From Erythrobacter sp. (lineage in GTDB: Bacteria; Pseudomonadota; Alphaproteobacteria; Sphingomonadales; Sphingomonadaceae): a stretch of 64,000 bases of DNA. The translations under genes were made by a program, and so were the position numbers. The stretch's first letter is position 1; each line of letters starts with the position of its first letter. Of the stretch, positions 55,256 through 57,707 are shown piece after piece. The stretch spans positions 124,001-188,000 of the forward strand of contig JAILWQ010000001.1 in NCBI GenBank assembly GCA_025698865.1. The letters are read 5' to 3'. A model generated the notes under the pieces. The model did no database searches, was not told where the DNA came from, and saw only the letters and a list, made by a program, of their open reading frames with translations.

Positions 55256-56473
55256 ATGAACGATCCCCTGCCCAATTCCTTTCGCCAGATGCCGGATTCG
55301 CGCGGTCATTTCGGCGAATTCGGTGGCCGCTACGTGGCCGAGACGCTGATGCCGCTGGTCCTCGACCTGGAGCGCGAATATCGCGCGGCGCAGGCCGATC
55401 CGGCCTTCAAGGCGCAGTTCGACGACCTGCTCGAACATTACGTGGGTCGCCCCAGCCCGCTCTATTTCGCCGAGCGGCTGACCGAGGCGGTCGGCGGGGC
55501 GCAAATCTGGTTCAAGCGCGACGAGCTCAATCACACCGGCGCGCACAAGATCAACAATTGCATCGGGCAGATCCTGCTCGCCATCCGCATGGGCAAGACG
55601 CGGATCATCGCGGAGACCGGCGCGGGCCAGCACGGGGTTGCCACCGCCACGGTCTGCGCGCGTTTCGGCCTGCCCTGCGTGGTGTTCATGGGCGCCGAGG
55701 ACGTGCGCCGCCAGTCGCCCAACGTATTCCGCATGAAGCTGCTCGGCGCCGAAGTCCGCCCGGTTACGAGCGGGCGCGGCACACTGAAGGACGCGATGAA
55801 CGAGGCGCTGCGCGACTGGGTCGCGAACGTGGCCGACACCTTCTACATCATCGGCACCGCTGCCGGCCCGCATCCCTATCCCGAGCTGGTGCGCGATTTC
55901 CAGAGCGTGATCGGCAAGGAAGCGCGCCAGCAGATGCAGGACCGCATCGGCCGCCTGCCCGATCTGCTCGTGGCCGCGATTGGCGGGGGCAGCAACGCGC
56001 TCGGCCTGTTCCACCCCTTCCTCGACGATGCGGACGTCAGGATGCTCGGCGTCGAGGCGGCGGGGCACGGCCTCGACGGCAACGAGCACGCCGCCAGCCT
56101 GCTCGGCGGCTTCCCCGGTGTGCTCCACGGCAACCGCACCTATCTGTTGCAGGACGAGGACGGCCAGATCACCGAGGGCCACTCGATCAGCGCAGGGCTG
56201 GACTATCCCGGCATCGGCCCCGAACACGCCTGGCTCAAAGACACCGGCCGCGTCGAATACACCGCCGTGACGGACGAGGAAGCGCTGGAAGCCTTCCAGC
56301 TCCTCTGCCGCACCGAGGGCATCATTCCCGCCCTCGAGCCGAGTCACGCCATCGCGGCGGTCGCCAAGCGGGCCAAGGAGATGGACAAGGACAGCGTAAT
56401 CCTCGCCAACCTCTGCGGCCGCGGCGACAAGGACATCTTCACCGTGGCCGAACGGCTTGGGGTGGAAATCTAA
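55256..56473 (+). CDS. trpB: Tryptophan synthase beta chain
   Basis: TrpB joins indole and serine using pyridoxal phosphate. The 405-residue product has [11 protein letters not shown], the PLP Lys in [41 protein letters not shown] and [13 protein letters not shown]. The start is ATG 55256. The stop TAA (56471-56473) is one base before the left 36-bp inverted repeat of the DUF559 cassette, so the cassette separates trpB from trpA. Confidence 0.97.
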
Positions 56474-56474
56474 A

Positions 56475-56510
56475 CCCTCTCCCCTTCAGGGGAGAGGGTT
56501 GGGAGAGGGG
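56475..56510 (+). repeat. Left arm of 36-bp inverted repeat, with internal palindrome
   Basis: This arm is the exact reverse complement of 56876-56911. Its first 24 bases form a perfect 10-pair hairpin CCCTCTCCCC/GGGGAGAGGG with loop TTCA. The last 12 bases are TTGGGAGAGGGG and end one base before the DUF559 ATG, so they act as its Shine-Dalgarno region. Confidence 0.95.
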
Positions 56511-56511
56511 C

Positions 56512-56919
56512 ATGCGAGACGCCGATCTCACGAAACGCGCGCGCGAAATGCGCAAAGCCATGCCAGAGCCGGAAACGCGGCTCTGGCTTGCGCTGCGGGC
56601 GAAGCGGTTCGACGCTATCAAGTTCCGCAGGCAGAAGGTGATACAGGATGCGGATCATCGCTACATCGTCGATTTCGCCGCCAACGATCCCAAACTGGTG
56701 ATCGAAGTCGACGGCGACACGCATCAGGGACGCGAGCTTTACGATGCGCGTCGGTCGGAATTTCTGAGAGAGCGGGGATACCGCGTCATCAGATTTTCGA
56801 ATTCGGACGTAATGGACAATCTGGAAGGGGTATTGGTGCGTTTAGCGGAAGCGATCGACGAGATGCGGGGGGCGCCCCCTCTCCCAACCCTCTCCCCTGA
56901 AGGGGAGAGGGCCATATGA
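56512..56919 (+). CDS. DUF559 (Vsr-like endonuclease fold) protein
   Basis: This 135-residue protein belongs to the DUF559 family, whose fold is that of very-short-patch-repair (PD-(D/E)xK) endonucleases. Visible blocks are KRAREMRKAMPEPETRLWLA, FDAIKFRRQKVIQ, YIVDFAANDPKLVIEVDGD (acidic active-site candidates) and ERGYRVIRFSNSDVMDNLEGV. The last residues, [14 protein letters not shown], are encoded by the right inverted repeat. The ATG follows a GGGAGAGGGG Shine-Dalgarno supplied by the left repeat. The stop overlaps the trpA start by four bases (ATGA). The nuclease role is family inference. It has no known part in tryptophan synthesis. Confidence 0.88.
   Translation: MRDADLTKRAREMRKAMPEPETRLWLALRAKRFDAIKFRRQKVIQDADHRYIVDFAANDPKLVIEVDGDTHQGRELYDARRSEFLRERGYRVIRFSNSDVMDNLEGVLVRLAEAIDEMRGAPPLPTLSPEGERAI
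56876..56911 (-). repeat. Right arm of 36-bp inverted repeat, with internal palindrome
   Basis: This arm is the exact reverse complement of 56475-56510. Its last 24 bases form the hairpin CCCTCTCCCC/GGGGAGAGGG with loop TGAA. The purine arm ends four bases before the trpA ATG and is the only plausible trpA Shine-Dalgarno, so it is paired when the hairpin forms. Confidence 0.95.
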
Positions 56920-57707
56920 ATCGCCTCTCCTCGGCTTTCGGCAAGCCCCGCCCCGCCCTCGTCTGCTTCCTCACCGCGGGTGACGGCGACACCGCGGCCA
57001 ATCTCGACGCTCTGGTCGAGGGCGGCGCGGACGTGATCGAGCTGGGAATGCCGTTCACCGATCCGATGGCGGACGGTCCGGCGATCCAGAACGCCAACAT
57101 CCGCGCGCTCGGCAAGGGCACGACCACGGCCGACGTCTTCGCCATCGCTTCCGCCTTCCGCGCGCGGCATCCCGATGTACCGCTGGTGCTGATGGGCTAC
57201 GCCAATCCGATGGTGCGGCGCGGGCCGGAGTGGTTCGCGGACCAGTGCCGCGCGGCGGGCGTCGACGGCGTGATCTGCGTCGACATCCCGCCCGAGGAGG
57301 ACGAAGCGCTCGGCCCGGCCCTGCGCGCTGCCGGGATCGCCCCGATCCGCCTCGCCACGCCGACCACCGACGAAAAGCGCCTGCCGCAGGTGATCGCGGG
57401 CAGCGAGGGCTTCCTCTACTACGTCTCGGTCGCCGGCATCACCGGCAAGCAGCAGGCCGCGCAAGGCTCGATCGAGGACGCGGTGGCGATCCTCAAATCC
57501 GCGACCGATCTGCCGGTGGCGGTCGGTTTCGGCGTGCGGACACCCGAACAGGCGGGCGCGATCGCGCGGGTCGCCGATAGCGTGGTGGTCGGCTCCGCGC
57601 TGGTCGAGCTGGTCGGCGAACACGGGGCCGACGCGCCCCGCCATGTGCGCGAACTCACCGCCAGTCTTGCGGACGCCGTGCATTCTGCGGCAAAGGGCGC
57701 CGCATGA
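56916..57707 (+). CDS. trpA: Tryptophan synthase alpha chain
   Basis: TrpA cleaves indole-3-glycerol phosphate and channels indole to TrpB. The 263-residue TIM barrel has [20 protein letters not shown], the catalytic Glu in [31 protein letters not shown] (catalytic Asp) and [13 protein letters not shown]. The start overlaps the DUF559 stop (ATGA), and the only ribosome-binding site (GGGGAGAGG) belongs to the inverted repeat. The accD start overlaps its stop by four bases. Confidence 0.96.

Follow-up and report, generated by a model that had tools for sequence, protein, structure and literature searches.

The trpB-trpA locus

The window, by which we mean the whole stretch of 64,000 nt analysed here (Erythrobacter sp., assembly GCA_025698865.1, contig JAILWQ010000001.1, positions 124,001 to 188,000, forward strand), carries trpB at 55256..56473 (+ strand; PF00291, E 1.4e-44, supported by its reading frame) and trpA at 56916..57707 (+ strand; PF00290, E 2.3e-83). 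Between these two genes lies a DUF559 gene bounded by two palindromic arms. The left arm (56475..56510, + strand), assigned from sequence, self-complementarity and fold, consisted of a 24-nt palindrome (56475-56498) followed by a 12-nt inward tail (56499-56510). The right arm (56876..56911, - strand) was its exact reverse complement, with the tail at 56876-56887 and the palindrome at 56888-56911, so that both tails pointed at the DUF559 gene. An earlier note on this DNA had described perfect 36-bp inverted repeats placed tightly between trpB and trpA, and both descriptions proved accurate: 56475-56510 and 56876-56911 were 36 nt each and 100% complementary, one base separated the trpB TAA (56471-56473) from the left arm, and four bases separated the right arm from the trpA start at 56916. 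The 10-pair stem that it had assigned to each arm was likewise found within the 36 bases of the arm itself. Extended by one base at either end, the left arm folded as single-stranded DNA into an 11-bp stem with a 4-nt loop (-12.4 kcal/mol, z -3.4). Assuming equal base use, about 7e-15 such arm pairs would be expected by chance within 500 bases of each other in 64 kb. The left arm also included a canonical G-quadruplex motif, by sequence only, with four G runs (GGGG-AGA-GGG-TT-GGG-AGA-GGGG; 56489..56510, + strand).

The open reading frame between the arms (56512..56919, + strand; 135 codons plus stop) was assigned to DUF559, as the earlier note had proposed, by a match to PF04480 with E 1.1e-33 and 115.8 bits (curated cut-off 20.6). 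Starting from the ATG at 56512, it read through the whole right arm, which encodes the C-terminal end of the protein, and its TGA, ending at 56919, overlapped the trpA ATG. The 24-nt palindrome had no further copy in the 64-kb window at up to 3 mismatches, and in the window genome it was present only as the pair at the trp locus; no arm doublets were found in that genome. Three DUF559 matches were found there: the trp cassette with both arms, a second with one arm upstream, and a third, weak match without arms. Two other identities were tried for the locus and rejected: no match to a known RNA reached its gathering score, and the best PADLOC match to an anti-phage defence system had only E 0.002 and 15.5 bits.

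Association of DUF559 genes with inverted palindromic arms

The survey of DUF559 genes took one genome from each of 59 genera of the family, and 53 of these genomes held a match. From a total of 133 matches, 113 were analysed, namely all 98 of at least 65 bits and 15 of the 35 weaker ones. For each locus, the 300 bases upstream were aligned to the reverse complement of the 300 bases downstream, and a score of at least 16 was taken as an arm pair. Counted in this way, as the earlier note had suggested, 79 of the 98 strong matches were bounded by an inverted palindromic arm pair, compared with none of the 15 weak matches and none of 223 control windows from neighbouring sequence. Around trpA, 1 of 69 control windows scored as a pair. 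When flanks from different genomes were paired, 7% of 1468 combinations reached the threshold, because arm types are shared between genomes. Five of the 19 strong matches without an arm pair belonged to a decayed clade described below. Among ten further loci, one within the family scored 37, one match of 62.6 bits scored 20, and eight weak matches had no pair.

Outside the family, an arm pair was found at 11 of 18 strong DUF559 loci and in 1 of 36 control windows. Of 14 plasmid-borne DUF559 genes chosen from the matches, seven had an arm pair, including both from Deinococcus; two cyanobacterial plasmid loci had pair scores of 10 and 13, with palindromes nearby. The arrangement was therefore not confined to alphaproteobacteria, as the earlier note had framed it. 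These results indicated that the association of DUF559 with inverted arms is real and general, and not a local oddity. Armed DUF559 genes were also seen inside other operons, between transhydrogenase genes on a Sphingomonas plasmid and between paaD and paaZ on a Deinococcus plasmid.

Solo arms, doublets and the question of a separate transposase

The window type of palindrome was found in 37 of the 59 family genomes. An arm type with the pattern GGGGAGGGGGACC-N-GGTGGAGGGG had 573 matches in 30 of the 59, and the reversed pattern had no match in these genomes. We typed 126 arms from among the matches listed for this pattern. Neighbouring pairs within 600 bp were overwhelmingly convergent (39 convergent, 5 divergent, 1 same-strand), and 31 of the convergent pairs, from related genomes, were REPIN-like doublets whose starts lay 52-87 bp apart. 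Lone palindromes, which the earlier note had proposed to look for, were thus present in related genomes as gene-less arms and doublets at scattered places. Eight convergent pairs among the 126 listed arms were more than 100 bp apart; seven of them enclosed a DUF559 match and the eighth an internally deleted DUF559 copy. The number of arms per genome correlated with the number of strong DUF559 genes (rho 0.70, or 0.50 after two arms were subtracted for each gene), a correlation not drawn from independent samples because the genomes share ancestry.

The arms could in principle be moved by a RAYT or another transposase, with DUF559 as cargo or bystander. RAYT units have the same architecture, as the available part of PMC2817692 describes it, and a Y1_Tnp match was present in 12 of the 59 genomes, its presence being weakly related to arm number (rho 0.34). 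Yet among the 23 arm-rich genomes (at least 10 counted arms), Y1_Tnp was matched in only 8 and strong DUF559 in all 23; the 15 arm-rich genomes without a Y1_Tnp match led us to reject RAYT as the general mover of the arms. Moreover, arms of the G/C-run kind were found at none of 13 Y1_Tnp loci, one of which scored 17 with a different repeat. All eight gene-wide arm pairs enclosed DUF559 or its remnant, as described above, and the DUF559 clade that had lost its catalytic residues was without arms. We therefore regard a passenger role for DUF559 as improbable. In two genomes, Y1 transposase genes were near an inverted repeat of GGGGACGCAATACTAAA or GGGACACAATAC type, unlike the DUF559 arms.

Structure of the arms and co-variation with the nuclease

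Arms differed between loci and matched within a locus. For the 79 armed loci, the best match of the left arm was its own right arm in 58, and protein distance correlated with arm distance (rho 0.39; none of 1000 permutations was as high). This co-variation suggests that the palindromes may serve as recognition ends of the nuclease. The DUF559 reading frame ran through the right arm in 66 of the 79 loci, and a canonical G-quadruplex motif, as a pattern of letters, occurred in 28 of the 79 left arms, compared with 1.5 on average after shuffling.

Many arms carried a second hairpin, whose sequence differed between the two arms of the same locus. In two arm classes, with 27 and 22 distinct inner sequences, the ends of this hairpin paired over at least 3 uninterrupted bases in 17 and 18 of them, respectively, compared with about 3% of shuffles, so that stems were kept while sequences changed. 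When G-T pairs were allowed in the first class, 39 of 44 second hairpins had a stem of 4 or more pairs, and in 25 of the 39 the stem was capped by a C-(GNA)-G triloop. The triloop figures cover this class; the outer ends of the second class do not pair, and only 2 of its 25 sequences entered the count. GNA and GNNA loops are described in the available part of PMC4686876 as forming extraordinarily stable DNA mini-hairpins. From the conserved stems and the stable triloops together, we infer that single-stranded DNA would be the acting form of the arms. In some arms, another variable hairpin around a TCACGTG-like loop replaced half of the palindrome.

Fold and catalytic core of the DUF559 protein

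The window protein was modelled from nine sequences with a pLDDT of 87.8. A fold search with this model returned 3hrl, a DUF559 structure, as the best match (E 1.5e-6), followed by the catalytic domain of the homing endonuclease I-Bth0305I (E 3e-3); Vsr was not among the 50 fold matches listed. A conserved D, an E-x-D and an H were each present in at least 103 of 105 non-decayed alignment rows. The earlier note had assigned the protein to the Vsr/PD-(D/E)xK fold, and the PD-(D/E)xK fold with its acidic core was borne out, while the likeness to Vsr found no counterpart among those 50 matches. Near the core, the window protein also had four extra residues between two strands, which were absent from eight aligned relatives at the trp locus.

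A decayed clade of 20 DUF559 rows had lost most of the conserved core, retaining the E in 5 of 20 and the H in 1 of 20, and none of its 20 members had an arm pair. This armless clade has perhaps been domesticated. Its members were often found once per genome among the loci analysed. As to activity, a methyltransferase mutant of Caulobacter needs the DUF559 protein VsrA for its SOS response, according to the available part of PMC12907096, so a DUF559 member can damage DNA in vivo.

Age and history of the trp copy

The earlier note had raised the question of whether trpB-trpA is interrupted in close relatives. In a survey of the order, covering the best 80 of 496 trpB-trpA loci, DUF559 was between the two genes in 8 of the 80, and the gap was at most 3 bases in 28 of the 80. 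In the genus, at least 8 of 60 genomes had DUF559 at this junction. Of the relatives found, the closest shared 93% identity in trpB and trpA; it had no cassette and held 519 bp of other sequence. All 16 trp-junction DUF559 proteins in the tree formed one clade, and all 16 members of that clade lay between trpB and trpA, which is why we call the window copy old; it is shared by distant genera. Within the clade, DUF559 distance followed TrpB distance (rho 0.57; none of 2000 permutations was as high), and in 8 of the 16 loci the DUF559 stop and the trpA start overlapped as ATGA, just as the trpB stop and the trpA start do where nothing lies between them. The trp copy would have entered early in the order and would since have been inherited mostly vertically, with many losses. 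The window copy has kept perfect arms and conserved catalytic residues.

Two other accounts of the trp copy were weighed against these data. A homing endonuclease specific to the trpB-trpA junction, which it would have entered by transfer time and again, would fit the position of all 16 clade members, the patchy presence (8 of the best 80 of 496 loci) and a homing endonuclease as the second-best fold match. But the agreement of DUF559 distance with TrpB distance is as in vertical descent, and the same arm type is found with other lineages at other places, which makes this account the most improbable of those we considered. Alternatively, DUF559 could be a host gene for a mismatch-nicking repair enzyme, and the arms regulatory mRNA hairpins or terminators, here in the trp operon. 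The requirement for VsrA in the SOS response of the Caulobacter methyltransferase mutant speaks for such a role, as do the age of the trp cassette and the ATGA overlap in half of its loci, as if tuned to the operon. Left unexplained by it, however, are arms at unrelated junctions, convergent gene-less doublets, the co-variation of arms with the nuclease, and dispersed and deleted copies; moreover, the cassette is missing at trp in most relatives, DUF559 being found in 8 of the best 80 of 496 loci. We consider a host repair gene unlikely, on a par with the passenger role. The reading we prefer for the window is a single, old copy of a nuclease unit with palindromic bounds, about 0.45 kb long and made up of an arm, the DUF559 gene and the inverted arm, which explains the locus best.

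The junction itself was variable. In one relative, the trp-locus DUF559 was followed by a truncated trpA copy matching the first 84 residues, other sequence and then a full trpA, and in two relatives repeats of CGTCATTGCGAG type filled the trpB-trpA gap in place of the cassette. In the genus, the junctions at trpB-trpA and at aceF were occupied by many unrelated short sequences of 0.2-0.8 kb that varied by species; these junctions look like turnover hot spots.

Dispersed copies and mobility

One genome held three DUF559 copies at unrelated places, the others being 98% and 86% identical to the first and all having the same arms; similarity stopped sharply a few tens of bases outside them. The same genome also held one internally deleted copy and solo arms. 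In the genus of the window, a second DUF559 lineage was found between two genes in 6 genomes and one gene further along in 4 others, with 62-79% identity and, in two genomes, full matching arms. We take the genes at these junctions to be aceF, a thioesterase gene and the next gene, names that were assigned by eye. The earlier note had considered the unit mobile. For the DUF559 family, the dispersed copies and the occupation of two neighbouring junctions agreed with this; the trp copy's own mobility was unsupported, since it is an old resident common to distant genera and its palindrome has no further copy in the genome. No base-exact empty site or target duplication was found at trpB-trpA, one dispersed copy, the aceF junction or the Sphingobium megaplasmids, where relatives held other sequence each time. 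E. coli was set aside in the search for empty sites, since its strains that lack ycjD have the eef genes at that place.

Comparison with known systems

The comparison with REP sequences and RAYT transposases drawn in the earlier note was well founded and extends more widely than it proposed, given the 79 of 98 strong family loci bounded by inverted palindromes. As described in the available parts of PMC2817692, PMC3116915 and PMC3733652, a REPtron, the unit of REP and RAYT, likewise has two inverted palindromes with asymmetric tails on either side of a gene whose product processes DNA; single palindromes and inverted doublets (REPINs) occur elsewhere, and enzyme lineages have their own palindrome types. 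The differences lie in the enzyme and in the arms. The enzyme here is of the PD-(D/E)xK type (PF04480), whereas RAYT units have an HUH Y1 transposase (PF01797), and Y1_Tnp had no match in the window genome. The GTAG-type tag of REPtrons is absent from the window arms; DUF559 arms instead have CCCTC/GAGGG-type runs, often with the second variable hairpin, and the reading frame usually continues through the right arm (66 of 79). Because the enzyme belongs to another superfamily, the DUF559 units are REP-like by analogy and not members of REP/RAYT.

With homing-endonuclease-like and Vsr-like nucleases, the window protein shares the fold of 3hrl and I-Bth0305I, but the DUF559 gene is bounded by inverted palindromic arms, and neither an intron nor an intein was seen at the loci read. 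Orphan repeats such as box C of E. coli and the alphaproteobacterial CGTC repeats are also short GC-rich palindromes between genes. The CGTC repeats reportedly lack a dedicated transposase, according to the available part of PMC3733652. They were rejected as the arms, the CGTC-type word searched for being near none of the 113 family DUF559 loci.

The DUF559 protein of E. coli, YcjD, lies between sapF and fabI. Repeats downstream of ycjD aligned in register with the window arm, and a 37-base query made from them matched in 5375 of 5426 genomes, at a median of 17 places per matching genome. This repeat resembles box C in size and number and may be box C. The size and copy number of box C are given in the available part of PMC2267715. 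No inverted arm pair was found around E. coli ycjD, where the elements were only downstream and pair scores were 10 and 9; a different long palindrome was found to the left. YcjD has been tied to Vsr through a profile search (available part of PMC1189080). Lying beside a box-C-like repeat, YcjD may be a relative of the system and possibly the mover of box C.

Discussion

Together, our results argue for a REP/REPIN-like system, unrelated to RAYTs, in which the driving enzyme is probably a PD-(D/E)xK nuclease that acts on the hairpins at the ends, a mechanism suggested by patterns in the DNA. Where the DNA is single-stranded, as in the lagging-strand template, the arms would form hairpins, and the DUF559 protein, as a homing-endonuclease-like PD-(D/E)xK enzyme, would recognise and nick them. 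Repair or reinsertion would then copy the piece between the arms, arms included and whether or not it holds the gene, into further gene junctions; the route may be excision followed by reinsertion, or repair of a homing-like kind. The relation of the doublets to this enzyme would resemble that of REPINs to RAYTs, in that they would be carried along as non-autonomous passengers.

Few kinds of non-coding sequence are as common in bacterial genomes as palindromic repeats. To our knowledge, a mobiliser has been assigned only to the GTAG-type repeats, namely RAYT. In the open-licence literature searched, we found none that connects DUF559 with palindromic repeats, and an earlier description elsewhere is possible. 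We tentatively propose, at somewhat below even odds, that a large class of orphan palindromic repeats has its missing movers in the DUF559 nucleases. This would be a second system of the REP/REPIN type, of independent evolutionary origin, in which a homing-endonuclease-like PD-(D/E)xK enzyme reads single-stranded DNA hairpins, and it would account for the G/C-run arms of alphaproteobacteria and Deinococcus, possibly of cyanobacteria, and for box C of E. coli with YcjD. If this is true, DUF559, which is still annotated as of unknown function, would gain a role as a binder and spreader of repeats, there would be a candidate mover for several orphan repeat families, and REP-type biology would have two separate origins in unrelated enzymes.
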